Shown piece by piece: positions 2,737-18,235 of a stretch of 23,672 nucleotides of DNA. The position numbers and the translations under genes are program-made. Origin of the DNA: a virus; the IMG/VR virus record IMGVR_UViG_3300037076_000126, positions 1 through 23,672 of that record. One strand, 5' to 3'. The first letter of the stretch is position 1. The number at the start of each line of letters is the position of its first letter. The notes under the pieces are model-generated. The model saw nothing but the letters and a program-made list of their open reading frames with translations. It was not told the DNA's origin and made no database searches.

Positions 2737-3431
2737 TTTATTGTATGCCCCATATTTTCTTCTTTTGTAAATTGCGAATTATAACGTAAATTAGTAGCAA
2801 TTTGAGTTTCTATAGTTTTATCATGATATAATGCCCATTCTTCTTCGGCTGGAAGAAATGAATATTCTTTATATCCAAGTATGCGCTCATGTAATTTTCC
2901 GGTCCATTTGATTCTAGGATAATCATTTTTTAGGATGCGACCTTGAAAATCTGGAAAATTAACCCGTAATGTGTTGTAGGTAGGAGAGTTATCTAATTTC
3001 CACCCCCACTGTTTAGCATGAGTTTCATTAACTCCTTTAAATATATTAATCCGTGACACCCAATATAATTCAATATTTGGATTGCTTTCTAGTAGTAATC
3101 TTAAAGACTCGCCAAGAAGAGAAATTGGAGGCAGTTCATCGGAATCAATATGAAAACAATAATCTTTACTGGAATGTTCTATACACTTATTCTTAAAGGC
3201 GGCATAATCTTTATTGAGAGAATAATAAAATACTTTAAAATTGCCTTCTCTATTATTGGACTTCTGATAATCCAATACTATTTGTTCGGTTTCTTTAGAA
3301 AAATTATCTTTATCAATAACTACTACAATTTCATCTTCCGGTGTAACGTGCATTACCAATGTTATTAATAATTGACGTAACGTATCGGTTTCGTTACATG
3401 TAGTAACACAATATGAAATAGTGGTCGGCAT
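2733..3431 (-). CDS. Glycosyltransferase family 2
   Basis: A 232-residue GT-A enzyme. The N-terminus ISYCVTTCNETDTL with EIVVVIDKDN is the usual GT2 UDP-sugar binding strand pattern. The metal-binding DxD is plain in FHIDSDELPP (Asp96 to Asp98). The later GRILKNDYPRIKWTGKLHERI segment is typical of phage and lipopolysaccharide GT2 enzymes, where a WxGxxHE motif follows the acceptor site. Donor and acceptor are unknown. It is the first gene after a strong promoter at 3445-3473 and leads the run 3431 to 1, so that promoter probably drives the whole sugar block. Confidence 0.85.
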   Translation of the reverse strand: MPTTISYCVTTCNETDTLRQLLITLVMHVTPEDEIVVVIDKDNFSKETEQIVLDYQKSNNREGNFKVFYYSLNKDYAAFKNKCIEHSSKDYCFHIDSDELPPISLLGESLRLLLESNPNIELYWVSRINIFKGVNETHAKQWGWKLDNSPTYNTLRVNFPDFQGRILKNDYPRIKWTGKLHERILGYKEYSFLPAEEEWALYHDKTIETQIATNLRYNSQFTKEENMGHTIK

Positions 3432-3444
3432 CTTAATAATTGTT

Positions 3445-3473
3445 ATTATATTAAATTTTAATCGAAATGTAAA
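3445..3473 (-). promoter_or_regulatory. Sigma70-type promoter for the glycosyltransferase operon
   Basis: On the minus strand TTTACA (3473-3468) is followed after 17 bases by a perfect TATAAT (3450-3445). The expected start of transcription is near 3438, seven bases before the ATG at 3431. The gene upstream ends at 3480, so the promoter fills the gap between the two. Confidence 0.7.
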
Positions 3474-3479
3474 GTTATT

Positions 3480-4088
3480 TTAATCTCTAAATATGATTAG
3501 TCGTATATTCGCTTTACCTTCTCCGTAATATTGATAAACTTCTTCTTTAGTTTTAATCTCGGTAAATTGATTATTATTTTTCATATCAATTATACCACAC
3601 TTTAAATTTTTCGAGAATGCTTCTAAAAATAATTTCTCCCAATACCACTTTCCCTTGGGCGTATGAACTCCATCAGACATGACAAATTCATACTTTTTAA
3701 GTATATTATTAAATATCCAATCTCTTGCTAATCCACGAAAATTCCGACTATTCCAGATGCTATGATTAACAATTCCATTAGAATGATCTAATTTAATTTC
3801 AGAATATGAATGATATAAATGAATGGTCGGTTCATGTTCTTCCATTAAATTTATAAATGTGTTATCTTCTTCTATCTTTTGATATATCCTAAAAGTAAAA
3901 CTCCCATACTTATGATGTCCTATTAAATTACTGTCTTTTTCAATTTTAACTGCTTCACCAGAATTAGCAATCCAATCATCTAATGCAATTGTATAATCCC
4001 GATACATTATCGGAGATTCGGTTAGCCCATACGTTTCTAGCATATATGACTTATAATCGAAGTTATATGCGTCGAATTCTTCGCTCAT
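3480..4088 (-). CDS. GNAT-like acyltransferase-fold protein, paralogue of 9762-10364
   Basis: A protein of 202 aa related to the gene at 9762-10364. Both begin with a YDYKSY/FDYKSY element and share a block HSIWNSRNFRGLARDWIF, then VMSDGVHTPKGKWYWEKLF. The order (R-x-x-G-L-A helix, then a strand with SD-x5-G-x3-W) resembles the acetyl-CoA binding part of GNAT acetyltransferases, and phage-encoded GNAT-like proteins often carry an SD...Q/T...G...W segment. The canonical Q/R-x-x-G-x-G/A is only partly kept, so an active acetyltransferase is an inference. It is followed after three bases by another coupled gene, and its own stop precedes the operon promoter at 3445-3473. Confidence 0.5.
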   Translation of the reverse strand: MSEEFDAYNFDYKSYMLETYGLTESPIMYRDYTIALDDWIANSGEAVKIEKDSNLIGHHKYGSFTFRIYQKIEEDNTFINLMEEHEPTIHLYHSYSEIKLDHSNGIVNHSIWNSRNFRGLARDWIFNNILKKYEFVMSDGVHTPKGKWYWEKLFLEAFSKNLKCGIIDMKNNNQFTEIKTKEEVYQYYGEGKANIRLIIFRD

Positions 4089-4091
4089 AAC

Positions 4092-4685
4092 TTATTGATT
4101 AGTCCGTAATCCTATTACAACATCACCAGCCACATCAGAATTCGCAAATAGATGTTCGATATTATCAGTTGGCGGAACTTCTTTTAGAGTTGCCGTATTT
4201 AAAATGAACAATATGACGCCATCATTGGCAAGTTCAACTCGATTTTTCCACATACTTAACCATATTTTAGATCCCATAACGCTTTGACGATTATCAGATA
4301 ATATGGGACAGTTCCATATCCTTGCCAATTCAATGTATAATGTCGATGCTGCTCGACTTGGATTATCCTGCATTTTATTTATTAATTTAGATTGATATGA
4401 TCCCTTTAGCCACCGTTTCTTATGGAATGTCGCTCCAATATGACATATTAAATCATCATCCTTTTTACTTATGATAGCAGCCCACCGATCACCAATATCT
4501 CCAAGTTCACCAAACACGATAAAATACCCACCGTCTATTTGATATGTATTTAATTTATTATTTTGCAATCTGACATTTAGCATATTAGATAGTGCATCAA
4601 TATTAGACGGAGTCAAATCTTGACAGATTCTAGGCATCTCTAATAATACTTCTTGTAATAACGTTTTTAATTTAATTTTCGGCAT
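4092..4685 (-). CDS. GNAT-like protein, tandem paralogue of 4689-5246
   Basis: A 197-residue protein clearly related to its upstream neighbour at 4689-5246. They share FGELGDIGDRW / YGDLNGLGDRW, then YQSK, PSRAASTLYIELARIWNCPILSD / PEKAASKLYIKLVTLWDCYILSN, then DGV/DGIV plus NTATLKEV / NTATKKEI. The middle holds the SD-x5-G-x3-W segment also seen in the 3480 and 9762 genes, suggesting a shared GNAT-like core. No catalytic function can be assigned. The pair is a tandem duplication that has diverged strongly. Gaps to both neighbours are three bases, so it is part of one transcript probably started at 6013. Confidence 0.5.
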   Translation of the reverse strand: MPKIKLKTLLQEVLLEMPRICQDLTPSNIDALSNMLNVRLQNNKLNTYQIDGGYFIVFGELGDIGDRWAAIISKKDDDLICHIGATFHKKRWLKGSYQSKLINKMQDNPSRAASTLYIELARIWNCPILSDNRQSVMGSKIWLSMWKNRVELANDGVILFILNTATLKEVPPTDNIEHLFANSDVAGDVVIGLRTNQ

Positions 4686-4688
4686 ACT

Positions 4689-5246
4689 TTATAGTTTTCG
4701 CAATCCTACCAATATATTTTCCGAATCAATATTATCAGAAAATATTTCATTGATATTATACTTTTTTATTTCTTTTTTCGTTGCTGTATTGTATACGAAG
4801 GGCACAATCCCGTCATTGGCCGAGAAAGTTCTATTTAATAATTCAATCCACACATTCATCCCATCCCCCGTCATTATACTATTTGAGAGTATATAGCAGT
4901 CCCACAACGTGACTAATTTGATATATAACTTTGAAGCGGCTTTCTCTGGATAAGATGTCAATTTTACTATTGCTTTTGATTGATATGTGATTTTATCATT
5001 TATAATAGATTTTACAAATATACCGCCCATGCAACATTCGTAGTTGCTATTTGTAATAACTACCCATCTATCGCCCAAGCCATTTAAATCCCCATATACC
5101 ACCCAGAAATCTTCTCCGATATTATTTTTTTTAGATAATACTAAATTTAGTTTATCTTGTATAAATAACTCAAAGTTGATGGACGAATTATCATGTGAGG
5201 CTGATAAATCTACTATCAAAGATTTCAATTTATTATCATTAAGCAT
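4689..5246 (-). CDS. GNAT-like protein, tandem paralogue of 4092-4685
   Basis: A 185-residue protein, the second member of the tandem pair. It keeps the GDRW block near residue 60, the AASKLYIKL helix, the ILSN-x5-G-x3-W element and the NTATKKEI stretch, ending in ENILVGLRKL where its partner has DVVIGLRTN. The shared ends show that the two genes are full-length relatives and not fragments. Function is unknown; the GNAT-like assignment rests on the same SD/SN...G...W pattern and is uncertain. It starts nine bases after the coiled-coil P-loop gene, with no Shine-Dalgarno. Confidence 0.5.
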   Translation of the reverse strand: MLNDNKLKSLIVDLSASHDNSSINFELFIQDKLNLVLSKKNNIGEDFWVVYGDLNGLGDRWVVITNSNYECCMGGIFVKSIINDKITYQSKAIVKLTSYPEKAASKLYIKLVTLWDCYILSNSIMTGDGMNVWIELLNRTFSANDGIVPFVYNTATKKEIKKYNINEIFSDNIDSENILVGLRKL

Positions 5247-5254
5247 AATTACAT

Positions 5255-6013
5255 TTACTCTTTATATTCAATTTTAACTTCAATTGATTTTACTTCTCTA
5301 TTTTCGATTAACATATCAACAAGTGGTGATAAGAATGATTTTTGAGATGTTTTATATTCACCTACCAAATCAACAACTCTTCTCTCAGAATCTATTTTTT
5401 CATTTAGTTCTCTGACGCTGGTTAATAATTCTCTATTAATAGTTTGACTGGTGTCTTTATCGGATTCATTTTCTCGATAAGTTAATAATTCATTTTTAAC
5501 TTTCACAAGGGTATCAATTAACTCTTTCTTTTCAGCCTCTAATTTTTCGATCCTTTCATCTAGCTTATATTGGATAGATAATGAAATGGCAAGATCATCT
5601 GTTAATTTCTTATTGAAATGTTCTAATGTAATATTATCTTGTTTATATCGATTAGCATCCGTTGATAAAGTTTCAATTTCAGTTGCGGCTTCTTGAAATA
5701 ATTGCTGTAAGAGACAATTATCAAGTAATATTGGATAATGATGTCCTCTTAATACAGTATCATAATTTGATGAGAATGGAATTGCTTTAATATTTTTCCG
5801 GAAACCGTTAAAATAATCAAGTTTAGTGTTTAAAACTCCGGCGGATTCTGAATTATGTGTCAATATAATGGCCGTATGAGTATCATGAATAACTTCTCCC
5901 GCCGCATACTTAGTATTTGTGGCTCCCATTAACATTCGGGTTGTATGTCCGACTCCTCGATTAACATTGTAATAGTTAACCAACTCTTTTAATTTATTTA
6001 GTATTTCACTCAT
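5255..6013 (-). CDS. P-loop-like protein with degenerate Walker A and a coiled coil
   Basis: A 252-residue protein with two parts. Residues about 18-100 look like the start of a P-loop NTPase: NRGVGHTTRML, a strand HTAIILTHN, then YPILLDN as a candidate Walker B. The lysine of Walker A is replaced by histidine (GVGHTT against GHGKTT in the relative at 12210-12593), so nucleotide hydrolysis is doubtful. From about residue 105 to 220 the sequence is rich in heptad-like K/E/L and should form a long coiled coil, with a short beta tail at the end (SIEVKIEYKE). The role is unknown; a scaffold or oligomer is likely. It has its own near-consensus promoter three bases upstream of the ATG. Confidence 0.6.
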   Translation of the reverse strand: MSEILNKLKELVNYYNVNRGVGHTTRMLMGATNTKYAAGEVIHDTHTAIILTHNSESAGVLNTKLDYFNGFRKNIKAIPFSSNYDTVLRGHHYPILLDNCLLQQLFQEAATEIETLSTDANRYKQDNITLEHFNKKLTDDLAISLSIQYKLDERIEKLEAEKKELIDTLVKVKNELLTYRENESDKDTSQTINRELLTSVRELNEKIDSERRVVDLVGEYKTSQKSFLSPLVDMLIENREVKSIEVKIEYKE

Positions 6014-6022
6014 AATTTAGTT

Positions 6023-6051
6023 ATTATATAATTATTTCAAGGAATTGTCAA
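6023..6051 (-). promoter_or_regulatory. Consensus sigma70 promoter giving a nearly leaderless mRNA
   Basis: Minus strand: TTGACA (6051-6046), 17-base spacer, TATAAT (6028-6023), a perfect match to both boxes. Transcription should start near 6016, three bases before the ATG at 6013. The -35 box lies inside the last codons of the endonuclease gene 6037-7353, so that gene was inserted or kept exactly against this promoter. Confidence 0.8.
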
Positions 6052-7353
6052 GTTATTTGATAATATTTCCGATATTTTCTTCATATCCCAATAAGGAATT
6101 CTTAATAATTTAATATTGTTATTTTTAGCATATTCATCCTTACGACGATCATGCTCTTTTGTTTTTAATAACTGGTCTTCTGTTGTTTTAGTTCCTCCAA
6201 AATACCCCTCACCATAATGCTGTTCCCCATCATACTCAATTAATAAATTCTGAGATGGAACGAAAAAATCGTATCTTAATAGTCTATTTCCAATTCCCAC
6301 TAGCCCATTAAATGTTTTCTGGCGTTGATATTCTAACATATTGATGTCTAAATAAACTCTGACTTTATGTTCTCCACTTGATAATTCGCAATATGGACAT
6401 CTACCATCATTTATATGCTCATATGGAATTTTTGAAAATGTTTTGTTGCATGTATTGCATATTATCTGAACTTGTGTATGTGCATTGATATAATTAACCA
6501 GAGAATAATTAAACAATTCTCCATATGTTGAATGTGCAATTTCAATCCATTTATGAGTAGTATATGGAACATTTCCAGCACATATTCCACATCCATGTCC
6601 TAGCAAATGTTGCATTGGCGTTTGTGGAAATTGTATATTACAAGTGCGGCATGTTATAATTACATGTGTGATTGCATTTGTATATTTCACAAATTCATAG
6701 CCATATAAGTCGCCATGTATGTGTTCAGCACGTTTAATAAAGTCAACTACGTTTGAGTGACAATTACCAGCACATTTTGAGCAGCCAATGCCTTGTAGAT
6801 GGTTAGATGCTCTTATATTGAATTCTCCATGTATAGGACAGATTACAATTCCGCTTGATTTTGAATCTGTATATTTAAATTTATGATAAGAATAGAAAAA
6901 GTTATGAATAATATTGGAACGAGTAATAAATTCTTCGATTGTCATTCGCCTGATATTTCCAACGTGTTCTACACTACATAATGGACACCCTTGACCACGA
7001 AGATGGTTTCCGGCCATTTGACTAAATACCGAATTATGAGAAGGACATATAATATCTATATGTGATTTAATATTTTCCCACTTGACTAAATCATATTTAT
7101 ATTTATTATTATGTATATTATTAGATTTAATTATAAATGTATCTAATGTATACGGCACATGATTAGAACACGCTGGACATCCAATGCCTTGCAGATGGTT
7201 AGATGCTCTTATATTGAATTCTCCGTGATATGGGCATATAACAATTCCTTTAGTATGCGAATCTACATAAATAAAATTGCCATAAGAATAGAAAAAGTTA
7301 TGTTCGATATTTGCTTTATCTATATATTCCGTCTGTGTTAATGGCTTACTCAT
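6037..7353 (-). CDS. Homing endonuclease with zinc-ribbon repeats and an EDxHD (Vsr-like) nuclease domain
   Basis: A 438-residue free-standing endonuclease. Residues about 36-325 hold five repeats, each with paired CxxC or CxxH sites around a pattern like ICPxHGEFNIRxxNHLxGxGCPxC, the DUF723-type DNA-binding zinc ribbon known from phage homing enzymes. Residues about 325-430 form a Vsr-like nuclease: Glu328 (SSGEHK), Asp362 (RYDFF), Glu373 and Asp375 (LIEYDGEQHY), His379 and Asp402, matching the EDxHD family. The protein ends KLLRIPYWDMKKISEIL, a tail also found as a remnant after the polymerase gene. It lies between a glycosyltransferase and a P-loop gene. A structured 5' region at 7357-7450 precedes the ATG, with no Shine-Dalgarno, which suggests translational control. 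Confidence 0.85.
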   Translation of the reverse strand: MSKPLTQTEYIDKANIEHNFFYSYGNFIYVDSHTKGIVICPYHGEFNIRASNHLQGIGCPACSNHVPYTLDTFIIKSNNIHNNKYKYDLVKWENIKSHIDIICPSHNSVFSQMAGNHLRGQGCPLCSVEHVGNIRRMTIEEFITRSNIIHNFFYSYHKFKYTDSKSSGIVICPIHGEFNIRASNHLQGIGCSKCAGNCHSNVVDFIKRAEHIHGDLYGYEFVKYTNAITHVIITCRTCNIQFPQTPMQHLLGHGCGICAGNVPYTTHKWIEIAHSTYGELFNYSLVNYINAHTQVQIICNTCNKTFSKIPYEHINDGRCPYCELSSGEHKVRVYLDINMLEYQRQKTFNGLVGIGNRLLRYDFFVPSQNLLIEYDGEQHYGEGYFGGTKTTEDQLLKTKEHDRRKDEYAKNNNIKLLRIPYWDMKKISEILSNNLTIP

Positions 7354-7356
7354 AAT

Positions 7357-7450
7357 CTGTCAGTGCCTTTTAATTTTAAATAGGAATACTACCTTAACCA
7401 TGAACTGCTTTGTTGGCACTGACAGTTGGTTGTAGTGGTAGTATTCCTAT
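7357..7450 (-). promoter_or_regulatory. Candidate H-type RNA pseudoknot in the leader of an endonuclease gene
   Basis: Two perfect inverted repeats are interleaved. Arm A, CTGTCAGTGCC (7357-7367), is complementary to GGCACTGACAG (7415-7425). Arm B, ATAGGAATACTACC (7380-7393), is complementary to GGTAGTATTCCTAT (7437-7450). The order A-B-A'-B' cannot form nested hairpins but is exactly the H-type pseudoknot order. In the minus-strand RNA the stems are 14 and 11 bp with loops of 11, 21 and 12 bases, the last being A/U only. The final arm ends three bases before the ATG of the endonuclease (7353), covering the ribosome-binding region. A near copy of part of arm A (TGTCAATGCC, 7471-7480) lies further upstream. 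No known riboswitch class was recognised. Confidence 0.7.
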
Positions 7451-7510
7451 AAATTGTTTCTTAGTTATAATGTCAATGCCTTATATTATACATATAAGCA
7501 AAGATAAGAA

Positions 7511-8845: not shown

Positions 8846-8847
8846 AT

Positions 8848-9579: not shown

Positions 9580-9580
9580 A

Positions 9581-9761: not shown

Positions 9762-10364
9762 TTAATTCTTTTCAAGGACATATCTCATTTGAAATTGTCC
9801 ATTTCCTCTAAATTCGTCCATATCGTTTACTGATGTTATATTTTTTACTATATTTCCCGTTTTAATATTGACTACATACATTTTATGAGAATTAGATGTT
9901 ACATATTCGGAAAATAGTCCTTGCCAGAATTTATAACCGGCATCACTTTGAATTTTATCCGATATGATAGTTGGTTCATTCGGAATAATTTCTTTATTGA
10001 ACCAATAACTTACTAATCCTTTATTATATTTGGAATTCCATATATGAGTATTTTCAATGCCCCTTATAGGTGATGTGATTCTCATGAAGGAATGTTCCAT
10101 GCAAATATAAGGAGAGTCTTTTGATAATAGACTATAAAAATGAGTATCGTCTTCAAATTCATAGAATAATCTATATTCATTCCAATTCTTTAATAATTTA
10201 GCATTTTGCTCAATTCTCATTGCCGCATACGCATTTTTCTCATAATCATTCATGGAAAAGTCAGTTCTCGGTAATTTCTCCGGCATTTCATTTAAATTAT
10301 AATATTCCTTAAAATACGACTTATAATCATATTGATATGGGTCAAATGCCGGAATATTGGTCAT
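9762..10364 (-). CDS. GNAT-like acyltransferase-fold protein, paralogue of 3480-4088
   Basis: A protein of 200 aa. It shares with the gene at 3480-4088 the N-terminal YDYKSYF, the EDDTHFYSLL segment, THIWNSKYNKGLVSYWFN and ISDKIQSDAGYKFWQGLF. The last two blocks resemble the acetyl-CoA loop/helix and following strand of phage GNAT-like proteins. The two paralogues also match in length and in their ends (MRYVLEKN against IRLIIFRD), so both are intact. The substrate is unknown. It is coupled to the dUTPase gene by a four-base ATGA overlap. Confidence 0.5.
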   Translation of the reverse strand: MTNIPAFDPYQYDYKSYFKEYYNLNEMPEKLPRTDFSMNDYEKNAYAAMRIEQNAKLLKNWNEYRLFYEFEDDTHFYSLLSKDSPYICMEHSFMRITSPIRGIENTHIWNSKYNKGLVSYWFNKEIIPNEPTIISDKIQSDAGYKFWQGLFSEYVTSNSHKMYVVNIKTGNIVKNITSVNDMDEFRGNGQFQMRYVLEKN

Positions 10365-10978
10365 TTATCTTTAATTTGATCTTTAATTCTTTGTTCGTAG
10401 GGAACTGGAGTATTTGATTCGTGTTTTTTATATTGTTCCAATATGTTAGGCATCCGTTCTCTCACTTCTTCTTTATTTGTAGGAATTGCTATTTCTCCCT
10501 TGGATGAAGAGTCATATAAATGACTTCCATTTGAAGTTATGGGGATAATATTGTTTTTTGTCGGCAAATCAGACGAACCAAAACCACCATTCCCACGATC
10601 AGTCGTATCTAAATCATCAACCACATTAAATTCTACGTTGGTATATGTTTCAAATATAATCTGGGCAATTTTATCACCTACATTTATAGTGACCGGTTCT
10701 TGTCCTAAATTAATAAGGGCAACTAACAACTCCCCCCTATACGAATTATCAATTACTCCGGCAAGAACATCAATTCCTTTTTTTACGGCCAATCCACTTC
10801 TTGGTGCAACTCTACCATATAAAGTATTGGGAATAGCAAATGAAATATCTGTTTTAAATGCTTTTCTCTCTCCACACTTTAATTCATATGATTCCACAGA
10901 ATAAACGTCGTATCCGGCGTCGGTATTACGAACTTTAGTTGGAATAATTGCCTTTTCGCTTAATTTTTTTATATTCAT
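10361..10978 (-). CDS. dut: dUTP diphosphatase (trimeric dUTPase) with a C-terminal extension
   Basis: Hydrolyses dUTP to dUMP and PPi, keeping uracil out of DNA and supplying dTMP precursor. All five trimeric dUTPase motifs are present in order: DAGYDVYS (20-27), PRSGLA (59-64), GVIDNSYRGE (74-83, with the catalytic Asp77 and Tyr80), GDKIAQIIF (101-109) and the P-loop-like RGNGGFGSS (128-136). The core ends near residue 140, the usual length; about 65 further residues, polar and probably mostly disordered, are an extension of unknown role. Transcription probably starts next to the ATG (TATAAT at 10991-10986). The gene overlaps the following GNAT-like gene by four bases. Confidence 0.95.
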   Translation of the reverse strand: MNIKKLSEKAIIPTKVRNTDAGYDVYSVESYELKCGERKAFKTDISFAIPNTLYGRVAPRSGLAVKKGIDVLAGVIDNSYRGELLVALINLGQEPVTINVGDKIAQIIFETYTNVEFNVVDDLDTTDRGNGGFGSSDLPTKNNIIPITSNGSHLYDSSSKGEIAIPTNKEEVRERMPNILEQYKKHESNTPVPYEQRIKDQIKDK

Positions 10979-10985
10979 GACTTAT

Positions 10986-11014
10986 ATTATAAATTATTGA
11001 TTGTTAAATTCTAA
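10986..11014 (-). promoter_or_regulatory. Probable promoter of the dUTPase gene
   Basis: Minus strand: a perfect TATAAT (10991-10986) eight bases before the ATG at 10978, with TTAGAA (11014-11009) 17 bases upstream as a weak -35. The start would fall at about 10979, giving a leaderless mRNA. The position relative to the ATG matches the promoters at 6023, 11192 and 17838. The -35 box lies in the stop-proximal codons of the small gene 11004-11183. Confidence 0.5.
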
Positions 11015-11183
11015 CACATTGAAATTTATCATCTATACCAGCCGAATCAAATATTAATTCAGCCGCTGCTGTCATTTGTATAGCCAATATAGGATGTATT
11101 ATTTGACAGTCAGTTGATTGTCCATATTCAACTAATAAGTCTTCAATTGCCGAGTGTATTTTGGATTTTAGATTTGTATTCAT
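11004..11183 (-). CDS. Small protein of unknown function (59 aa)
   Basis: An ORF of 59 codons starting MNTNLKSKIHSAIEDLLVEY and ending KFQCVRI. The middle (HPILAIQMTAAAELIFDSAG) is Ala-rich and should be helical. I do not recognise it. It is credible because a near-consensus promoter (TTGATA-N17-TATAAT) is placed so that transcription starts two bases before its ATG, and because the next gene's promoter begins at its end. Confidence 0.55.
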   Translation of the reverse strand: MNTNLKSKIHSAIEDLLVEYGQSTDCQIIHPILAIQMTAAAELIFDSAGIDDKFQCVRI

Positions 11184-11191: not shown

Positions 11192-11220
11192 ATTATAACT
11201 TATTGATGATTGATTATCAA
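11192..11220 (-). promoter_or_regulatory. Sigma70-type promoter, nearly leaderless
   Basis: Minus strand: TTGATA (11220-11215), 17-base spacer, TATAAT (11197-11192). Start expected near 11185, two bases before the ATG at 11183. The -35 box overlaps the TGA stop of the upstream ORF. It lies partly in one copy of a 26-bp direct repeat shared with the promoter at 11473-11501. Confidence 0.7.
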
Positions 11221-11472: not shown

Positions 11473-11501
11473 ATTATATTCGAATATTGATTAATTATCA
11501 A
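11473..11501 (-). promoter_or_regulatory. Sigma70-type promoter upstream of the start-less ORF
   Basis: Minus strand: TTGATA (11501-11496), 17-base spacer, TATAAT (11478-11473), start expected near 11466. Boxes and spacer length are the same as at 11192-11220, and both share the 26-bp repeat. Unlike the other promoters here, no ATG follows within ten bases. Confidence 0.6.
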
Positions 11502-11513: not shown

Positions 11514-11514
11514 C

Positions 11515-12219
11515 TTAGTCGGTTAATTGAATCGTATCGATTAATTTTAAACATTCTGCCGGTATATTTGATAAAGTAAATACTCCTCCATTATAATTGA
11601 CATCCTTAAAGTATCTAACATACTGATTATAATCATATAACATAGAAGCATCCAATTCCCATACATCATACGGTATATTTTTCTTAGTGCGTCTTACTAT
11701 AGATTTAACTATATTTCTAACTTTACCTTTATCAAATACAAAATAAATTCTGGCTGGATGTTTTGATATTTTTTCTTTATTTTTAGGACATAACCCAATA
11801 TGTTCTATTTTTTCTCTATTAATCGATGGTGAAACGTGATATAATATTTTATAAGAATCATATTGTTCCGTTGGATAATTTGCTTCTAATTGAAGGGTGA
11901 ATATTTGTCGCTGTTCTTCTATGAATTTATTAGCATCAAATTTCTCCCACTTTCCATTTTTTAATTGTCCCGATATATACCAACCCAACGCATTAATATG
12001 TTCTTGTATATGTTGGATAGTAGATTTTGAAAGTGGACGTGATATTTTTAAATCAACATATATTTTATCATTTGACTCACGAACATCAAAATCTCCATCT
12101 CGAAACCACCATGCTAAATTATGAGCGGCTTCTTTCGTTCCGACTGATTTAGTTAATAATTCGTAGATCATATGATCCGTATCAATTCCGCTTGTTTTTA
12201 ATTTTCTTTTTATTTGCAT
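11515..12219 (-). CDS. Protein with a possible ADP-ribosyltransferase-like C-terminal domain
   Basis: A 234-residue protein. The C-terminal half begins KILYHVSPSINREKIEHIGL, then KHPARIYFVFD, VWELDAS and finally IPAECLKLID. The order LYHxS, RIYF and a closing xPAExLKL resembles the ART fold (ADP-ribosyltransferases and the KptA/Tpt1 type), in which the His and Tyr sit at the NAD site; the third catalytic residue is not certain. The first 110 residues (WWFRDGDFDVRES, LGWYISGQ) are unrecognised. If active it might modify a host protein or nucleic acid, but this rests on short motifs. It overlaps the P-loop gene upstream by ten bases. Confidence 0.45.
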   Translation of the reverse strand: MQIKRKLKTSGIDTDHMIYELLTKSVGTKEAAHNLAWWFRDGDFDVRESNDKIYVDLKISRPLSKSTIQHIQEHINALGWYISGQLKNGKWEKFDANKFIEEQRQIFTLQLEANYPTEQYDSYKILYHVSPSINREKIEHIGLCPKNKEKISKHPARIYFVFDKGKVRNIVKSIVRRTKKNIPYDVWELDASMLYDYNQYVRYFKDVNYNGGVFTLSNIPAECLKLIDTIQLTD

Positions 12220-12593
12220 AAGATCTTACTCATTAAATTATTAATACATTGTGCCGGAGATTTTCCAATAGGAGTGGCGGCATAATATCCTTTAAAAGTT
12301 AACCATTCCGGATTAATCTTATCAATATAATAATCAAAATCGTCATAAAGAAACATACTCTTATTCAGATTCATTATTTCCGAATTAGTTACTTTATCAA
12401 TTTTATCAAATTCAACGATATCAAACAAATCAGAATTACATTCTTTCAAGGATAACTTTAATTTATTAATATGGATATCAGATGGTAGAATAATTAAACA
12501 GGGCTTGTTAACATTTATTCGAGATCGGGCAAATTCAACTAATCGAGTAGTTTTGCCATGTCCATGAGATGATATATCAAGTATAAAACTCAT
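12210..12593 (-). CDS. Small P-loop NTPase-like protein
   Basis: A 127-residue protein with SSHGHGKTTRLVEFA at residues 8-22, a Walker A in which only the first Gly is changed, a strand CLIILPSD, and SMFLYDDFDYY (79-89) as Walker B with Asp84/Asp85. It is far shorter than a helicase or packaging ATPase, so it may be a stand-alone nucleotide-binding module. It appears related to the first part of 5255-6013, where the Walker A lysine is lost. It lies between the endonuclease at 12595-13347 (one base gap) and the ART-like gene (overlap), with no Shine-Dalgarno. Confidence 0.6.
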   Translation of the reverse strand: MSFILDISSHGHGKTTRLVEFARSRINVNKPCLIILPSDIHINKLKLSLKECNSDLFDIVEFDKIDKVTNSEIMNLNKSMFLYDDFDYYIDKINPEWLTFKGYYAATPIGKSPAQCINNLMSKILCK

Positions 12594-12594
12594 T

Positions 12595-13347
12595 TTATTT
12601 TAACTCTTTCTCCGTTATTATTCTATATTGATAATTATTTAATTTACAATATTCAATGGCGGCATCATATTTCAAATTGTTATTATCAACTTTACTCTTT
12701 ACTAAATTACTCGGTTTAACTTCTTCAATTATATTACTACCAACTAGAAAATCAGGAACGTAATTTCTCGTATTCCCAACTGGATCAACGTAGGGAATTC
12801 TAATTCCATGCTTCTTCGTCCATTTAATATTTAAATTATCCAATTGTTTCATTCTTTTTTCTTCATATGATGATCCAAACCATTCATCGTTACCTGTTAC
12901 AGTTGAATGATGCCATCCCTGCTTATAGAAATTACGTTTAGGATTGCATTTTCCTTCAGCTATTAATTTAGAACGAGAAAGGGACATATTAGGATTATAT
13001 TTTCCTCGCTTAAATTGTCCGGCACATTGTATCGAACAACATTTCTGAGTTACATGGCACTTTTTAGTATAAAACACTGTATTACAAAAGGCACATGTTT
13101 TATATTCTCCTAATTGTTGAGTCTTTCTCAAGTATTCTTTCCGACATTGTTTAGAGCAGTATTTATTAGCATCTATTAATAGTTGACTGTGCTGAGTTGA
13201 TGTGAACTCTTTATTACAGCATAAACAATTCTTTGTTCGGTTGAATCTGTTATATGGCAATTTTAATGATTTGTGATAACAACTATGAGAACAATATTTT
13301 CTGGATGATTTTATATCCATGTTACATGTTTTACATTTATTATTCAC
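12595..13347 (-). CDS. Homing endonuclease-like protein, paralogue of 8848-9579
   Basis: A 250-residue protein with the same plan as 8848-9579. The Cys-rich half has pairs CKTC, CLCC, CSKQC, CAFC, CCSIQC. The nuclease half has SSYEEKRMKQLDNLNIKWTK, then YVPDFLVGSNIIEEVKP with Pro-Asp at 198-199 and Glu209-Val-Lys211, and ends RIITEKELK. The two proteins match closely in the nuclease half and diverge in the zinc half, as expected for enzymes that have changed target. The start is a GTG that overlaps the TGA of the glycosyltransferase fragment upstream (GTGA), so translation is coupled to it. Unlike its paralogue it has no ribbon-helix-helix partner. Confidence 0.75.
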   Translation of the reverse strand: MNNKCKTCNMDIKSSRKYCSHSCYHKSLKLPYNRFNRTKNCLCCNKEFTSTQHSQLLIDANKYCSKQCRKEYLRKTQQLGEYKTCAFCNTVFYTKKCHVTQKCCSIQCAGQFKRGKYNPNMSLSRSKLIAEGKCNPKRNFYKQGWHHSTVTGNDEWFGSSYEEKRMKQLDNLNIKWTKKHGIRIPYVDPVGNTRNYVPDFLVGSNIIEEVKPSNLVKSKVDNNNLKYDAAIEYCKLNNYQYRIITEKELK

Positions 13348-14333
13348 ATTGCATCAATTCTGGTTTGAATTTTACTTCTGTCAATTTTAGGTATTTCGAA
13401 TCCTAGTTTACCTCTTGTCATTGTATTGCCGACATGATCTTTAACGGAATAAACTCCAAATGCTTTAGGCTTAACCCAATTATTAAATACAAATTCCATA
13501 CAGTTAACAAACTGTTCTCCCATGTTTTTTGCATTGATTCCACCAGCCCCCAGTGCCCATTCCCTACCTTCCTTGCCATATTGTTTACGAGTTTTATGAG
13601 GAGTCATATACCAATACATAAATCCCTCGGCAAAATCCTCAAACTTTGCAATTTCGTCGAATATATAAGGCGTAGGAATACTTCCTTGAACCATTCTTGT
13701 TGCTGGCCATACAGGATATGCCCAATTACCACATTTCTTATATTTTCCATCGCTATTACTTCCCCAATCACCGGTAAATTTTAATGGATTTCCAGTATCA
13801 TCTACAAAGCCCATTTGATCTTGAAGCCCCCCCGTTACTGTTGCAATTATAGGAGTTCCGGCCATAACACTCTCAGCCGTAGAAAGTCCGAATCCTTCTG
13901 AACTAGAAGCACATACAACAACGTCGGCACAATTATATAACAGGTTTAAATCGGTGGGAGAAAGCTTTCCCGGTGAGAATAATATATTATAATTAGGGCA
14001 TAGAGATTCTTTTACAGCAACTAAATTAGTTCCGGCATCAAGTGCAATCTCGCAATGTAGAACTAATAAAATTCTAGATGCTTCTTCCGGAGTTAAATTA
14101 TCACAAAATTGTCGGTAGGCTAATATTATATTACTTGTTCTTTTTCGTTGAATATTTCGAGAATTATATAATAATATAAAATTATATTCTTTACCTTGCG
14201 TTAATTTTTTACGAAATTCAATAAAGGCAGGATCAGTATGCGCTATTGGCTTAAATGTCGTTGATGATATACCATGAGGAACGGTATGAATTAGTTTCTT
14301 ATTTACTATTTGATTATTAAGTTTGAATGCCAT
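13344..14333 (-). CDS. Glycosyltransferase GT4, C-terminal (nucleotide-sugar) domain as a separate protein
   Basis: A 329-residue protein that starts at the point where an intact GT4 enzyme would cross from its first to its second Rossmann domain: LIHTVPHGISSTTFKPI (residues 14-30). Next come FILLYNSRNIQRKR (donor phosphate-binding Arg/Lys) and ASSSEGFGLSTAESVMAGTP, with the E-x7-E pair Glu146 and Glu154. The N-terminal acceptor domain is missing here but is encoded just upstream at 14347-14922. The two ORFs are 13 bases apart and in different frames, so this is a split glycosyltransferase whose halves probably assemble. A homing endonuclease follows with a four-base overlap. Confidence 0.75.
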   Translation of the reverse strand: MAFKLNNQIVNKKLIHTVPHGISSTTFKPIAHTDPAFIEFRKKLTQGKEYNFILLYNSRNIQRKRTSNIILAYRQFCDNLTPEEASRILLVLHCEIALDAGTNLVAVKESLCPNYNILFSPGKLSPTDLNLLYNCADVVVCASSSEGFGLSTAESVMAGTPIIATVTGGLQDQMGFVDDTGNPLKFTGDWGSNSDGKYKKCGNWAYPVWPATRMVQGSIPTPYIFDEIAKFEDFAEGFMYWYMTPHKTRKQYGKEGREWALGAGGINAKNMGEQFVNCMEFVFNNWVKPKAFGVYSVKDHVGNTMTRGKLGFEIPKIDRSKIQTRIDAM

Positions 14334-14346
14334 ATTATTTATTTAG

Positions 14347-14922
14347 TTATTTGGTTGTTATTAAATTTCCATCTTGGTCAAATTCTCCTTCTAATGATAT
14401 ACAATTTAAAGGATCACATACATGTTTCGCTACGTTATTTGATTGTTGCGATATAGCAAGGAGCGCATCGACGGAATCATAACTGGGACGATTCCATTGC
14501 GGCATCATTTGTGAATCCCAAATATGCCAATACACTAGTGGTATTCCCATTGCATGAATTTGTGCCTCAATTGCAAAAAGCCACATATACTGCCTCGGAT
14601 CTGTAATTGCCGCTATTGCGTCTGGTTTCTCAATTTCGATTATTTGAAATAAAATATTGGCGTCACCATAACCATTAACCGGATATAATTTACAATAAGC
14701 ATCTTTAATATTTGCTTCTTCGTTGAAGTGTTGCGACATATCACAAATCTTACCTAATTCCGGGTGCCCATTCGCCCCTCCCAATAAAGTATAGTCATAT
14801 TTATGCACAGTTTGCTTAACCATTTCCTTTGTTGCGACACTTACGCCTGAAAAAAATCTTATATCATCGGATATAAAAAGTATCTTTTTTTTCTTATTGT
14901 TGTTTGTATTATTGTTATTCAT
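14347..14922 (-). CDS. Glycosyltransferase GT4, N-terminal (acceptor) domain as a separate protein
   Basis: A 191-residue protein. After an Asn/Lys-rich start (MNNNNTNNNKKKK) it reads ILFISDDIRFFSGVSVATKEMV, the first strand and Gly/Ser loop of a GT-B N-domain, then PDAIAAITDPRQYMWLF, IPLVYWHIWDSQMMPQW and VDALLAISQQSNNVAKHV. The last is the segment that in whole GT4 enzymes stands 15-30 residues before the VPHGI motif beginning the C-domain, found in the next ORF. It ends with a short tail (DQDGNLITTK) and TAA. It is preceded by an endonuclease gene one base away. Confidence 0.7.
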   Translation of the reverse strand: MNNNNTNNNKKKKILFISDDIRFFSGVSVATKEMVKQTVHKYDYTLLGGANGHPELGKICDMSQHFNEEANIKDAYCKLYPVNGYGDANILFQIIEIEKPDAIAAITDPRQYMWLFAIEAQIHAMGIPLVYWHIWDSQMMPQWNRPSYDSVDALLAISQQSNNVAKHVCDPLNCISLEGEFDQDGNLITTK

Positions 14923-14923
14923 A

Positions 14924-16033
14924 TTATTTATTGATTAATTCTCCTTTTCTGTTAAATATCATTTTTCTATAGTTATATCCGGCATCGATAACGGCGGCTT
15001 CCTTTAAATTTAGATATTTTGTGGTTTTATTTGTCCAATCCGACTTAACCTCGACTATTAAATTGTCTTTTTTGATATATGCATCTGGATAATATCGACG
15101 AGATATTCCGTCTGGGGAGGTGTAACGTAATATGGGCATATCCTTATAAGACGTTGTTATATCATGTTCCGAATAAGTTTTAAGTAATTCATCTAAGCCA
15201 AATGGTTCATATCCTTGGACTTTAATGATCTTACCGGATGGCAAAGTATAAGATTTTCGTTGATGTGCTGCTTTTTGTTGTTTTAATATAATTTCTGGAC
15301 AGTGCATCGGACTTGATACTCCGTAGTTTTTAAGGCATGTTTGTCTTGATTTCTCTTTAACTTCTTCTGTCTGATTGGCGTTCTCCACTCCATATTTTCG
15401 CAAACACGTTTGTCTTGATTTTTCTTTAATTTCCGGAACTTGAAACCCATTGCTTACTCCATATTTAAGAAACATTGTATTTTTATATGCGTCAGTCATA
15501 TGCTTTACGTTTTCTTCAGATTCCCATCTTTTTGACGTAAGTCTGGACATATTTTTAAGCCTGTCATCTGTTTCCTTAGTCTGTCCTTTATTCCATATGA
15601 ATCTATTTTTATGTATGTTAGCAATTCTAACGTCAGTTTCTTTAGTTAGGCCGGTGTTCCATTTTGGATCGTGTCTGCATATATAGGTATGATACCCAAT
15701 GTCTAAATTTTTAAATGACGGGGTTCTTCCGCATCCACATTTACAAGTTGGTATATTTCCCAACAATACAAATTCGTTGTAGTAGTTATGTGAAGTCATA
15801 TTATGACATTTATCAAGATGACATGAAAATCTAGTTGCATTTTTAATTATTCTATTGCAAATTTTACATTGATGTGGGGTTTGTTTTGGTGTCCTTGTTC
15901 CGATAGGAGCGGCTGGAAATTGCTTTATATACTCTGCAAGTGTGATATCATGAACACGTTTCAAATGAGAACCATTAACTCTCGTTTTCATATTCAAGCC
16001 ACAAATTTCACATTTTATAAAAATATAATTCAT
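14924..16033 (-). CDS. Homing endonuclease with C2H2/C4 fingers, NUMOD-like repeats and PD-(D/E)xK domain
   Basis: A 369-residue protein. Residues 1-80 contain two zinc fingers (CEICGLNMKTRVNGSHLKRVH and CKICNRIIKNATRFSCHLDKC) and residues 97-120 a further Cys/His cluster. About 185-245 is a three-fold repeat of LKYGVxN...EIKEKSRQTC, typical DNA-recognition repeats of phage mobile endonucleases. The C-terminal domain has GYEPFGLDELL (Glu276), YYPDAYIKKDNLIVEVKSDW (Pro-Asp 316-317, Glu328-Val-Lys330), a PD-(D/E)xK nuclease. Its ATG overlaps the TGA of a ribbon-helix-helix gene. It sits directly before the N-half of the split glycosyltransferase. Confidence 0.8.
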   Translation of the reverse strand: MNYIFIKCEICGLNMKTRVNGSHLKRVHDITLAEYIKQFPAAPIGTRTPKQTPHQCKICNRIIKNATRFSCHLDKCHNMTSHNYYNEFVLLGNIPTCKCGCGRTPSFKNLDIGYHTYICRHDPKWNTGLTKETDVRIANIHKNRFIWNKGQTKETDDRLKNMSRLTSKRWESEENVKHMTDAYKNTMFLKYGVSNGFQVPEIKEKSRQTCLRKYGVENANQTEEVKEKSRQTCLKNYGVSSPMHCPEIILKQQKAAHQRKSYTLPSGKIIKVQGYEPFGLDELLKTYSEHDITTSYKDMPILRYTSPDGISRRYYPDAYIKKDNLIVEVKSDWTNKTTKYLNLKEAAVIDAGYNYRKMIFNRKGELINK

Positions 16034-16194
16034 ACTTTAGTTGGTGTATTATTGCTACTTCCACTAATGGCTTGTCGAATGGCAATCTCAGTAAATCCTG
16101 ATAATTTATAGCCATGTTCCTTGCAAAATTTATGTAAATCTTTACTAATTTCTTCGGAAATTTGTATTGATAATTTGGTATTTTTCTTCTTCAT
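16030..16194 (-). CDS. Ribbon-helix-helix DNA-binding protein
   Basis: A 54-residue protein: MKKKNTKLSIQISEEISKDL, then HKFCKEHGYKLSGFTEIAIR and a polar tail. The strand TKLSIQIS and the helices EEISKDLHKFCKEHG and LSGFTEIAIRQAI match the Arc/CopG pattern, including the small residue-rich turn before helix 2. An upstream in-frame ATG at 16206 would add four residues (MYNG); neither has a Shine-Dalgarno. The TGA overlaps the ATG of the endonuclease 14924-16033, so the two proteins are made together. An imperfect palindrome ACGA-gaaaa-TCGT (16227-16239) upstream may be its operator. Confidence 0.65.
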   Translation of the reverse strand: MKKKNTKLSIQISEEISKDLHKFCKEHGYKLSGFTEIAIRQAISGSSNNTPTKV

Positions 16195-16206
16195 ACCATT
16201 ATACAT

Positions 16207-16312
16207 ATATGCAAAAAATTGAAAACACGAGAAAATCGTAGAAATCTAATATTTATTTTTCAACTCCTCTAAAATATAATAAGTTTACTATGGGATTGTA
16301 TTCTGATATAGT
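16207..16312 (+). promoter_or_regulatory. Divergent promoter region; plus-strand promoter at 16284-16312
   Basis: This gap separates the minus-strand and plus-strand gene blocks. TTTACT (16284-16289, within GTTTACTA, which resembles the T4 early -35) is followed after 17 bases by TATAGT (16307-16312). The start would be at about 16319, the A of the ATG of the nuclease gene, so again leaderless. A second candidate -10, TATAAT at 16275-16280, lacks a good -35. No strong promoter for the minus direction was found. Confidence 0.5.
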
Positions 16313-16318
16313 GTGCTG

Positions 16319-17200
16319 ATGTCTGAACCTATAAAGAAAAAACAAATATCATTTAGTCAATTTTCGACCTATTTCGCATGTGGTTATAAATGGTTTCGTG
16401 ATTATGTTAAGAAGGATAAGAAGTTTGAGGATAATTTAAATATGAGTATGGGTTCTGCCGTGCATTTTGCCCTTCAAACATATTTGACTCTATTGTATAA
16501 TGAATCAGAAGCCAAAGCAGAGGCACTTGATATTGTCGATATTTTCATAAAATCATTTCGTGGAGAAATTACGAAGAAGGGAATTAAATCTTCCGAAGAA
16601 GAAATCGACGAGTTCATAACCGATGGAAGTGCTATTCTAAGAGAATTTATCCGGCCTGAAAATAGAAAGAGATATTTTCCCCGTGAAAAGTATGAACTAC
16701 TTGGAATTGAAATGTCATTAAATGAACCAATTTTTAATAACCTGAATATTGTAGGGTTTTTGGATTTAGTTTTAAAAGAGAAAATGACGGGAAATATTAA
16801 AATTGTTGATTTTAAAACCTCAACGAGAGGATGGTCTGCATCAGAGCAGGAAGATTTTACAAAATTAGCTCAGTTGAGACTCTATAAGGCTCTTTATAGT
16901 AAGAAGCATAATCTTCCGCTGAATAAAATTCAAGTTGAATTCTTTATATTAAAGAGAAAACTATATGATGAATCTAAATGTAAATTTCCCCAAACTAGAT
17001 TAAAGATATTTACTCCGCAATCATATAAAAATGATATTGAGGAAACATTGGTCGAGATCAGTAAATTCATAAAAGCATGTTTCACGGAAGACGGTGAATT
17101 TATTCCTAATAAGGAACATGAAAAACTTCCCTCCACAAAAGCATGTAAATATTGCCAATATGCCAAAGACGGAACCTGTGATAAGAAGAAAAATAAATAA
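16319..17200 (+). CDS. Cas4/RecB-like nuclease with an iron-sulfur cluster motif
   Basis: A 293-residue PD-(D/E)xK exonuclease-type protein, probably acting in phage DNA replication or recombination. Motifs in order: SFSQFSTYFACGYKW (Cys21), MGSAVHFAL (His49), LGIEMSLN (Glu131), IVGFLDLVL (Asp149), KIVDFKTS (Asp164, Lys166) and QLRLYKAL (Gln185, Tyr189), which is the full RecB/Cas4 series. At the C-terminus CKYCQYAKDGTC (276, 279, 287) together with Cys21 gives the four cysteines that bind a 4Fe-4S cluster in AddB and Cas4. No cas genes or CRISPR array are present, so it is not an adaptation protein here. I chose the ATG over a GTG six bases upstream. It is the first gene of the replication block. 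Confidence 0.85.
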   Translation: MSEPIKKKQISFSQFSTYFACGYKWFRDYVKKDKKFEDNLNMSMGSAVHFALQTYLTLLYNESEAKAEALDIVDIFIKSFRGEITKKGIKSSEEEIDEFITDGSAILREFIRPENRKRYFPREKYELLGIEMSLNEPIFNNLNIVGFLDLVLKEKMTGNIKIVDFKTSTRGWSASEQEDFTKLAQLRLYKALYSKKHNLPLNKIQVEFFILKRKLYDESKCKFPQTRLKIFTPQSYKNDIEETLVEISKFIKACFTEDGEFIPNKEHEKLPSTKACKYCQYAKDGTCDKKKNK

Positions 17201-17202
17201 TT

Positions 17203-17388
17203 ATGATTGATTTCGCCAAAGCTAATACAAAAGAATTTCGGGAATTTTTAAAAAATGAAATCGATGCCGATATATTTTCTCAAATAGCAAATAAAACAAA
17301 AAATAAACATATTAAGAATAGATTAGTCGAATGTGCTAAATCGCTGATTGATAATAATAAATCTATTTTAGAGATTGAAAATAACTAA
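17203..17388 (+). CDS. Small Lys/Asn-rich protein of unknown function
   Basis: A 61-residue, mostly helical protein (MIDFAKANTKEFREFLKNEI, then FSQIANKTKNKHIKNRLVEC). It follows the nuclease gene by two bases and precedes the next by three, so it is cotranscribed. No family recognised; no membrane or signal segment. Confidence 0.55.
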   Translation: MIDFAKANTKEFREFLKNEIDADIFSQIANKTKNKHIKNRLVECAKSLIDNNKSILEIENN

Positions 17389-17391
17389 ATT

Positions 17392-17598
17392 ATGAAGAAA
17401 AAACAAAAAATTAAAAAGATAAATAAATTCCCATCCGTTAGAATAACGAAATCATGGGTAAATTCCTGTGATCATTGTATTCATCAAGAAGCCGGAGGTC
17501 ATTATTGTAATTTTAGAGGTGAACCCATGAAAAATATGGATATAAAAAGATGTGGTGCCTTCGAAGATAAACTTGATAGTAATAATTTGAAGTATTAA
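17392..17598 (+). CDS. Small Cys-containing protein, probable zinc knuckle
   Basis: A 68-residue protein with a basic start (KKKQKIKKINK) and four cysteines in SCDHC (26, 29), YCNF (39) and RCGAF (54), spaced like a small zinc-binding domain. Phage genomes often carry such one-domain proteins, some binding nucleic acid. The role is unknown. It lies in the run of closely spaced small genes leading to the polymerase. Confidence 0.6.
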   Translation: MKKKQKIKKINKFPSVRITKSWVNSCDHCIHQEAGGHYCNFRGEPMKNMDIKRCGAFEDKLDSNNLKY

Positions 17599-17601
17599 TA
17601 T

Positions 17602-17808
17602 ATGGACGAAATGCGATATAATATTCATGGGGTTATTGTGACAGTGGAACCGAATGGGGAAGTGTGGTTAAAATTTAAAAGCTTAAAAGCAACAGATGGT
17701 AGCTTAGTTAAGAGATGTCGACAAATTGTAGATTATATGATTTCCGAGGCGTTTATCACGGATGACCAAGTAGAGTATATTAATATCGACGGAGTCACAA
17801 TTCGATAA
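17602..17808 (+). CDS. Small protein of unknown function
   Basis: A 68-residue protein: YNIHGVIVTVEPNGEVWLKF (two beta strands), then a helix VKRCRQIVDYMISEAFI and a last strand VEYINIDGVTI. The alternating pattern suggests a compact alpha/beta fold, but I do not recognise it. It is three bases after its neighbour and is the last gene before an internal promoter. Confidence 0.55.
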   Translation: MDEMRYNIHGVIVTVEPNGEVWLKFKSLKATDGSLVKRCRQIVDYMISEAFITDDQVEYINIDGVTIR

Positions 17809-17815
17809 TATTTAA

Positions 17816-17843
17816 TTGACAATTGAAATTAAACTGATATAAT
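17816..17843 (+). promoter_or_regulatory. Consensus extended -10 sigma70 promoter
   Basis: TTGACA (17816-17821), 16-base spacer, TATAAT (17838-17843), with TG one base before the -10 box (extended -10). This is the best promoter in the window. Transcription should begin near 17850 and the next ATG is at 17852, so the transcript that runs into the DNA polymerase would be practically leaderless. Confidence 0.85.
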
Positions 17844-17851
17844 GCGGTAAT

Positions 17852-18235
17852 ATGTTATCATCAGAATTCATACAATCATTAAATGAAGACGAGATGAGTC
17901 TATTACTATATTTCGTAAATGTAGTTGGTCGACCTTTATCTCACAATATCCCATTTGAAGTTAACGATTTGAAATTTTTTAGAAAAGATATTTTAACGAA
18001 GAAATTATTAGATTCGTTTAATAAATTGACACCGGACGGACATCCAATATTTGTTTCTCTCATGGAAAAGTTTGGTGTTAAAGTTGAAATTAAACAGGAA
18101 GAACCTAAGAAAATCGAAGAACCAGTATTACCAATAACAAGTTCAGTTGAACAGATTGTTTCTATTCAACCGGAAGTTTCTCAATCGGCAGAAACTCCTA
18201 AAACTGAAACAACTGGCTCGGCAGAAATAAAATAA
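17852..18235 (+). CDS. Unknown protein with a disordered acidic tail
   Basis: A 127-residue protein. The first 80 residues (EFIQSLNEDEMSLLLYFVNV, then FFRKDILTKKLLDSFNKL) are predicted to be helical. From about residue 85 it changes to a Glu/Pro/Ser/Thr-rich tail (EEPKKIEEPVLPITSS and onward) with no fixed structure. It is the first gene after the strong promoter at 17816-17843 and lies two genes before the polymerase; a replication accessory role is possible but not shown. Confidence 0.6.
   Translation: MLSSEFIQSLNEDEMSLLLYFVNVVGRPLSHNIPFEVNDLKFFRKDILTKKLLDSFNKLTPDGHPIFVSLMEKFGVKVEIKQEEPKKIEEPVLPITSSVEQIVSIQPEVSQSAETPKTETTGSAEIK

Follow-up and report, generated by a model that had tools for sequence, protein, structure and literature searches.

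In this study, we examined the promoters that lie directly in front of start codons in a 23,672 bp stretch of viral DNA with 31 % G+C, which is the complete IMG/VR virus record IMGVR_UViG_3300037076_000126 and is called the window throughout. An earlier note on this DNA had described six promoters whose -10 box ends a few bases before an ATG and had proposed that leaderless initiation is a rule in this phage; all six were found where it had placed them. On the plus strand, the promoter at 17816..17843 (TTGACA-16-TATAAT with a TGA before the -10 box, 12/12 matches) ends 8 nt before ATG 17852 of a predicted leaderless gene of 127 aa to which no function was assigned (17852..18235), and the one at 16284..16312 (TTTACT-17-TATAGT, 9/12) ends 6 nt before ATG 16319 of a predicted leaderless PD-(D/E)XK nuclease gene (16319..17200; PF12705, E 9.5e-23). 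The other four are on the minus strand: 10986..11014 (TTAGAA-17-TATAAT, 9/12, with a poor -35 box of 3/6) lies 7 nt before ATG 10978 of a predicted leaderless dUTPase gene (10361..10978; phrog_135, E 1.2e-51); 11192..11220 (TTGATA-17-TATAAT, 11/12) lies 8 nt before ATG 11183 of a predicted leaderless small gene of 59 aa (11004..11183); 6023..6051 (TTGACA-17-TATAAT, 12/12) lies 9 nt before ATG 6013 of a predicted leaderless gene of 252 aa (5255..6013); and 3445..3473 (TTTACA-17-TATAAT, 11/12) lies 13 nt before ATG 3431 of a glycosyltransferase-like gene (2733..3431; phrog_2456, E 2.4e-05). Transcription from sigma70 promoters starts about 7 nt past the -10 box. With the start assumed at this distance, the leaders predicted for ATGs 3431, 6013, 10978, 11183, 16319 and 17852 come to about 7, 3, 1, 2, 0 and 2 nt, respectively. 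The short spacing described in the earlier note was therefore borne out, although the range of 7–10 bases given for it was not, since the gap measures 6–9 nt in five promoters. The sixth, at 3445..3473, had been said to leave about seven bases; its glycosyltransferase-like gene, with a predicted leader that is very short, does not count as leaderless in the strict sense.

Two of these promoters match the consensus at 12/12 positions, two at 11/12 and two at 9/12. Among 34 window starts, which were picked by hand for a chance test, promoters ending 5–13 nt before the ATG number six at the level of at least 9/12, four at 10/12 or better, four at 11/12 or better and two at 12/12; order-1 resampling of the same 34 upstream sequences gave means of 1.51, 0.26, 0.01 and 0. 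No -10 box ends 14–22 nt before these ATGs at any level, and at 23–31 nt there are four at 9/12 or better and none at 10/12 or better. Counting -10 boxes in the window without a -35 box was too noisy to be informative (5 seen, 4.4 expected). On both strands together the window holds seven promoters of at least 11/12, four of which precede ATGs of the set above and three of which do not; two of the latter lie at 4620-4647 and 11568-11597 (+).

By megablast, the window matched none of 50,697 phage records. Its family B DNA polymerase (PolB) is 29 % identical to that of T4, and the nearest annotated phage by PolB is the Microcystis phage Mel-JY01 (PP395634; 41 %). Among uncultured viruses, G001 (IMGVR_UViG_3300029985_000073, 43 kb) gave best matches to window proteins that are 39–81 % identical, and G042 (19 kb) carries five promoters identical letter for letter to those of G001. 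G008 (IMGVR_UViG_3300031884_000002, 353,772 bp) matches the window at 62 and 56 % in two parts of PolB and at 71 % in the GT4 protein, and a search of the G001 proteins against G008 gave 44 hit lines. More distant are G041 (215 kb; PolB parts 39 and 34 %) and G011 (76 kb; 42 and 31 %). The clamp loaders of G001, G008, G041 and G011 are 31–38 % identical to that of T4, so that the lineage is T4-like in the wide sense of a homologous family B polymerase together with a clamp loader, the latter being judged in the relatives. The term T4-like, which the earlier note had used, can thus be kept for PolB and for the relatives' clamp loader with the qualifier that this is a distant, jumbo-sized lineage. 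The window is most likely part of the genome of a T4-related jumbo phage, the size being judged from that of G008.

Three of the window promoters hold their place in both G001 and G008 while their spacers have diverged. Upstream of the 17852 gene, which is 57 % identical to its G001 orthologue, G001 has a 12/12 promoter at 8 nt and G008 has TTGACA-16-TATCAT at 5 nt; the 16319 promoter is kept with a weak -10 box in G001 and as TTTACG..TATACT at 6 nt in G008; and the 10978 promoter corresponds to TTGATA-17-TATAAT at 6 nt in G001 and to TTGAAT..TATACT at 8 nt in G008. It is mainly because the relatives keep it that this dUTPase promoter is believable despite its poor -35 box. The G001 orthologue of the 11183 gene (47 % identity) has no promoter of its own and lies directly behind another leaderless gene that has one, and the orthologues of the 6013 and 3431 genes showed no promoter in either G001 or G008. 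Further promoters are kept between G001 and G008, for example at g45, g48, g52 and g71 (gaps of 6–12 nt). As promoters are kept at some orthologues and absent at others, they appear to come and go with gene order and to adopt a similar spacing.

The histogram of promoter-to-ATG distances, for which a missing peak had been named beforehand as the outcome that would speak against the rule, was run on the relatives. All records were scanned alike (at least 10/12 matches, spacers of 15–19 nt) with a simple ATG-only, longest-open-reading-frame (ORF) gene caller, shifted gene positions served as the null, and T4 was represented by the first 100 kb of its 169 kb. Promoters 5–10 nt before an ATG account for 16 of 67 in G001 (null 0.32, maximum 3), 77/591 in G008 (null 2.72, maximum 9), 8/31 in G042 (null 0.21), 27/174 in G041 (null 1.14), 6/52 in G011 (null 0.20) and 3/36 in the window (null 0.15), where a further one stands at 13 nt. 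G001 has no promoter at 11–20 nt. The spacing is therefore a rule and not an accident, as had been proposed: G001 and G008, which are close relatives, have the peak, whereas T4 has none of its 83 promoters at 5–10 nt and nine at 21–40 nt, and Mel-JY01 shows no peak with 1/183. The promoters are of the sigma70 type (TTGACA/TATAAT, 16–18 nt apart), with a spacer of 16 nt in 15/16 of those in G001 and 57/77 in G008 and mostly of 17 nt in the others; a scan for the G001-type promoter with its 16 nt spacer gave 62 stretches. Six distant records that share the GT4 gene (G002–G007) have no peak, with no such promoter at 11/12 or better and at most two each at 10/12 or better, and hence the rule does not travel with this gene. 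Six other IMG/VR loci with 29–55 % G+C (L051, L124, L079, L104, L048 and L150), which were selected by a pattern containing such a site, hold three to five promoters each, nearly all 6 nt before an ATG, and are perhaps other leaderless phages.

A second promoter class became apparent in G008, where the commonest 8-mers upstream of genes are ATATTTAT (58 genes) and TATTTATA (54 genes), with about three expected for each. ATATTTAT lies 3–9 nt before 54 ATGs in G008 (null 1.36), the commonest distance being 5 nt (26/54), and at the same distances before 12 ATGs in G011 (null 0.14), six in G001 (0.14) and five in G041 (0.31); there are none in T4 or Mel-JY01. It is a -10-only box with no evident -35 box, TTGAC being found within 30 nt upstream of 8/54, and the genes g1 and g70 with this box are kept between G001 and G008. 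T4 has early, sigma70-dependent promoters and late promoters of the form TATAAATA that depend on gp55. In G008, TATAAATA shows no peak near ATGs and the enriched box reads ATATTTAT(A). Among ten large G008 genes behind ATATTTAT (of 54), two match tail or baseplate families, four match other families (a transposase, a ligase-like protein and two weak families) and four match none; among the ten largest behind sigma70 boxes (of 71), eight match families and two none, and the sigma70-box genes include an NAD-dependent DNA ligase, a tRNA nucleotidyltransferase and two RNA ligases, one of which is filed under tail in PHROGs. When the ORFs of the first 100 kb of T4 were compared with G008 at 1e-5, without a profile search, 11 proteins matched, none at the position of gp55. 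ATATTTAT is probably a late promoter that is leaderless too, the label 'late' being suggested by its layout. In the window, a tentative late-like box of this class, ATATGTAT, may lie at 16201..16208 (-) before ATG 16194; ATATTTAT occupies the corresponding position at the G001 orthologue of this gene, and aligning the proteins sets the start at 16194.

Shine-Dalgarno (SD) motifs, counted as GGAG, GAGG or AGGA at positions -18 to -4 and compared with random places in the same genome, are nearly absent from the window: they precede 1/34 starts, which is not above the background of 6 %. The same holds for G001 (5/78; 6 %), G008 (25/542; 5 %) and G041 (28/382; 7 %), whereas T4 has SD motifs before 86/158 starts (54 %; background 6 %) and Mel-JY01 before 65/235 (28 %; background 3 %). 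In G008, 90 ATGs lie 5–11 nt past a -10 box and 18 at 20–26 nt, which served as control, and in G001 the numbers are 16 and 0; this enrichment is biased by the calling of genes from ATG alone. TTG (9 and 7) and GTG (2 and 3) are not enriched in G008. Where a start is not packed against an upstream stop, one of the two boxes precedes it in 159/333 cases in G008 (6 % in shifted controls), 20/39 in G001 (14.5 %), 77/257 in G041 (5.6 %), 5/16 in the window (10 %) and 2/96 in T4 (8 %). The packed starts number 18/34 in the window, 39/78 in G001 and 209/542 in G008, and SD motifs precede 0, 3 and 14 of them, compared with 30 of the 62 packed starts (of 158) in T4. This suggests coupling without a Shine-Dalgarno.

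Several observations weigh against so general a rule. In the window, the six promoters at 9/12 or better do not exceed the resampling maximum of six, no ATATTTAT lies 3–9 nt before a called start, and the promoter at 11473..11501 (-; TTGATA-17-TATAAT) has no ATG in reach; the ORF behind it lacks an ATG close to its 5' end, and tblastn against G001, G008, G041 and G011 yielded no match. G008 also has 15 promoters at 11–20 nt and 21 at 21–40 nt before ATGs, and packing is no commoner in G008 (209/542) than in T4 (62/158). G011 retains SD motifs at 22 % of starts (20/92), above background. Neither box was found at 174/333 unpacked starts in G008, 19/39 in G001, 11/16 in the window and 180/257 in G041; these starts may have boxes that are weaker, may have been called wrongly or may belong to genes inside operons. 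Among PolB relatives at 35–40 % identity, 72 of 80 loci, kept from at least 514, lack a promoter 5–10 nt before the gene, from which it follows that the rule is bound to a lineage.

A further set of exceptions consists of small basic ORFs of the form MGRKK...RYY..K, 45–55 aa long with one of 91 aa. Five in G001 (46–55 aa; 4191, 6127 and 9816 on the minus strand, 28940 and 31274 on the plus strand) begin with MGR and are separated from an upstream ATATTTAT by a longer leader that contains an SD-like motif, and six similar ones in G008 (45–91 aa) also lie behind ATATTTAT after a longer leader, two of the six with an SD-like motif. G001 and G008 have one of these leaders in similar form. A larger called gene starts 19–40 nt later in another frame in 8 of the 11 cases and overlaps the small ORF. 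We considered whether the SD-bearing ATGGG starts are in fact the starts of the endonuclease genes and rejected this, as they open separate ORFs, mostly in a frame other than that of the larger gene. The MGR ORFs are thus leadered genes inside a mainly leaderless genome, and they may travel with mobile endonucleases, because larger genes nearby have homing-endonuclease matches. The promoters described in the earlier note are confirmed; the second, late-like box and these exceptions were not part of it.

Taken together, these results suggest that initiation in this lineage is leaderless as a rule, with about half of the unpacked starts covered. On the basis of the promoters, their spacing and conservation and the background level of SD motifs, all of which can be read from the DNA itself, we consider it highly probable that in this T4-related jumbo lineage transcription would start at, or about 0–4 nt from, the start codon at two promoter classes, with re-initiation downstream. 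Sigma70-type promoters (TTGACA, 16–17 nt, TATAMT, the -10 box often preceded by TGA) would serve early-looking genes, and the -10-only box ATATTTAT, which ends 3–9 nt before the ATG, would serve another set that is probably late. An mRNA starting at the AUG would leave no room for a Shine-Dalgarno, and the ribosome would have to recognize the 5'-terminal AUG. The many downstream genes that are packed on the previous stop without an SD motif would be reached by coupled re-initiation, and the lineage may be adapted to a host with efficient translation of leaderless mRNA.

It is also conceivable, though we think it unlikely, that the rule is real and not host-driven but an idiosyncrasy of the lineage, brought about for example by phage factors that turn ribosomes to leaderless mRNA. 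This would fit with a late-like box that is placed alike and presumably read by a phage factor, and with the tRNAs and tmRNA carried by G008; no ribosome-turning factor was identified, although no profile search for one was made, and other IMG/VR records, mostly picked for the pattern, hold many such promoters, which would rather fit adaptation to a host. Packing of a compact genome, in which short intergenic gaps have trimmed the leaders and ribosomes load through an AT-rich or S1-dependent route, is improbable. The upstream sequence is indeed AT-rich and the noncoding stretch upstream has a median length of 45 nt in G008 and, over the three genes counted, of 23 nt in the window; however, 32/77 such genes in G008 and 9/16 in G001 have more than 60 nt free upstream and yet a gap of 5–10 nt, and this unused space largely refutes the idea. 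It would also not be expected that G001 lacks promoters at 11–20 nt, or that T4, with an equal share of packed starts, places promoters at 21–40 nt and none at 5–10 nt, and a leader of 0–4 nt would leave S1 no landing site.

Wrongly called start codons, with true starts downstream and ordinary leaders, are a very improbable explanation. Genes were called as longest ORFs, and for some of them (16206, 1063) another start is likely, but the alignments with G001 begin at Met1 with conserved first residues for 17852 (MLSSxFIxSL), 10978 (MNIKxLxEKA), 6013 (MSxILNKLKEL) and 11183. The start of 16319 is level with that in G001 though divergent at residues 3–7, the 3431 start is two residues longer than that of its G001 relative, and SD motifs at the called starts are not above background. 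Chance, in the sense that TATAAT-like strings abound in DNA of 31 % G+C and that an ATG follows some of them fortuitously, draws on the 36 matches of at least 10/12 in the 23.7 kb window and on two of the six promoters reaching only 9/12, a level at which the count is within the resampling range, but it is refuted for the group and hardly deserves credence in view of the shifted-gene nulls (0.3 compared with 16 in G001, 2.7 compared with 77 in G008) and the conservation at orthologues, even if a single weak window site could still be due to chance.

Going back to leaderless initiation as a rule of the lineage, we see about an even chance for its strongest form: that the lineage has abandoned the Shine-Dalgarno, with both promoter classes leaderless and coupling downstream, and that its host would be an uncultured bacterium with leaderless translation as its main mode. 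A host-driven cause, which the earlier note had considered, may apply; nothing found points to the enteric host with which that note had compared it. A search for relatives of the GT4 protein in genome contigs, in which a pattern was matched by 25 stretches, found none. Bacterial genomes were also scanned for the promoter, with 80 of at least 118 stretches listed, and whole-genome counts were made in 50 chosen of the 80, comparing gaps of 5–9 nt with gaps of 25–29 nt in genomes that had each been picked for holding a match. A bias towards short gaps was seen in a Stahlbacteria metagenome-assembled genome (MAG) (68 : 21), Brocadia (28 : 3), a goat-gut bacterium (29 : 5) and a Planctomycetota MAG (18 : 8). 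For the first three (G082, L356; G096, L387; G105, L379), this suggests that leaderless genes are common in them. Ten Patescibacteria together have little bias (37 : 23, up to 10 of the 37 owing to how the genomes were selected), and in some Clostridia the bias is reversed (G098, 7 : 16). We rejected the short-gap genomes as evidence on the host, as they were picked for matches and nothing links any of them to the phage.

Other features of these genomes deserve mention. The T4-like DNA polymerase of the window is split into pieces within 18559-22885 (+): the exonuclease and the first polymerase part lie at 18559-20298 and the last polymerase part at 21866-22885, with an intein splicing domain (PF14890) at 20309-20731 and a separate ORF of 375 aa at 20763-21890 between them, all on the plus strand. 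The arrangement suggests that a split intein, carrying an inserted gene that perhaps encodes an endonuclease, interrupts the polymerase; in G001 and G008, the polymerase is a single unbroken ORF. At 13344-14922 (-), the GT4 gene and the adjacent gene correspond to a single larger gene in each of G041 and G011, and have thus been fused or split between relatives. Beside an HNH endonuclease gene (6037-7353), nested inverted repeats occupy 7357-7449, with CTGTCAGTG at 7357 pairing with CACTGACAG at 7417 and TAGGAATACTAC at 7381 with GTAGTATTCCTA at 7438. G008 encodes a tmRNA (L426:15248-15637, -; Rfam RF00023, 83 bits). The tRNAs predicted in it number 25, of which one is uncertain. A tRNA at L432:11456-11530 (+) with the anticodon CTA, named tRNA-Pyl by ARAGORN, is a possible amber suppressor; TAG still terminates 28/491 called G008 genes.

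Leaderless translation is already known for single phage genes and some bacterial chromosomes. Zheng et al. (2011; PMC3160421) describe TA-led genes of bacteria that lack an SD and have a -10-like signal with its first T about 12 bp before the start codon. The present case is similar, since the first T lies 12–16 nt upstream for gaps of 6–10 nt, the -10-like box is significantly placed and SD motifs are at background in the window, G001, G008 and G041; it differs in being phage-wide rather than chromosomal, in having complete TTGACA boxes and in using a second class of box. Leaderless initiation in lambda is mentioned in the same source (PMC3160421); as in such single genes, the mRNA here would begin at the AUG, but as a genome-wide rule and with SD motifs at background. 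T4 likewise has two classes, one sigma70-type and one -10-only, but in its first 100 kb it has no promoter 5–10 nt before an ATG and an SD motif at 54 % of starts. The late sequence of T4-like phages is given as 5'-TATAAAT-3' in PMC9004378; ATATTTAT is like it in layout and unlike it in letters. Mel-JY01 shares T4-like replication genes and a glycosyltransferase block but lacks the leaderless peak (1/183) and has SD motifs at 28 % of starts compared with 3 % at random. Among the matches listed from open-licence PMC articles, none described leaderless initiation across the whole genome of a T4-like or jumbo phage. This novelty is tempered by the remark in PMC5312081 that phage transcripts 'are often leaderless'. 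For gene finding, the results are a warning: in genomes of this kind, programs that look for an SD may place starts wrongly. The sequence signature could help in assigning hosts to uncultured jumbo phages, and two promoter classes that have converged on the AUG would provide a natural test of whether the preference of the host ribosome shapes viral promoters.

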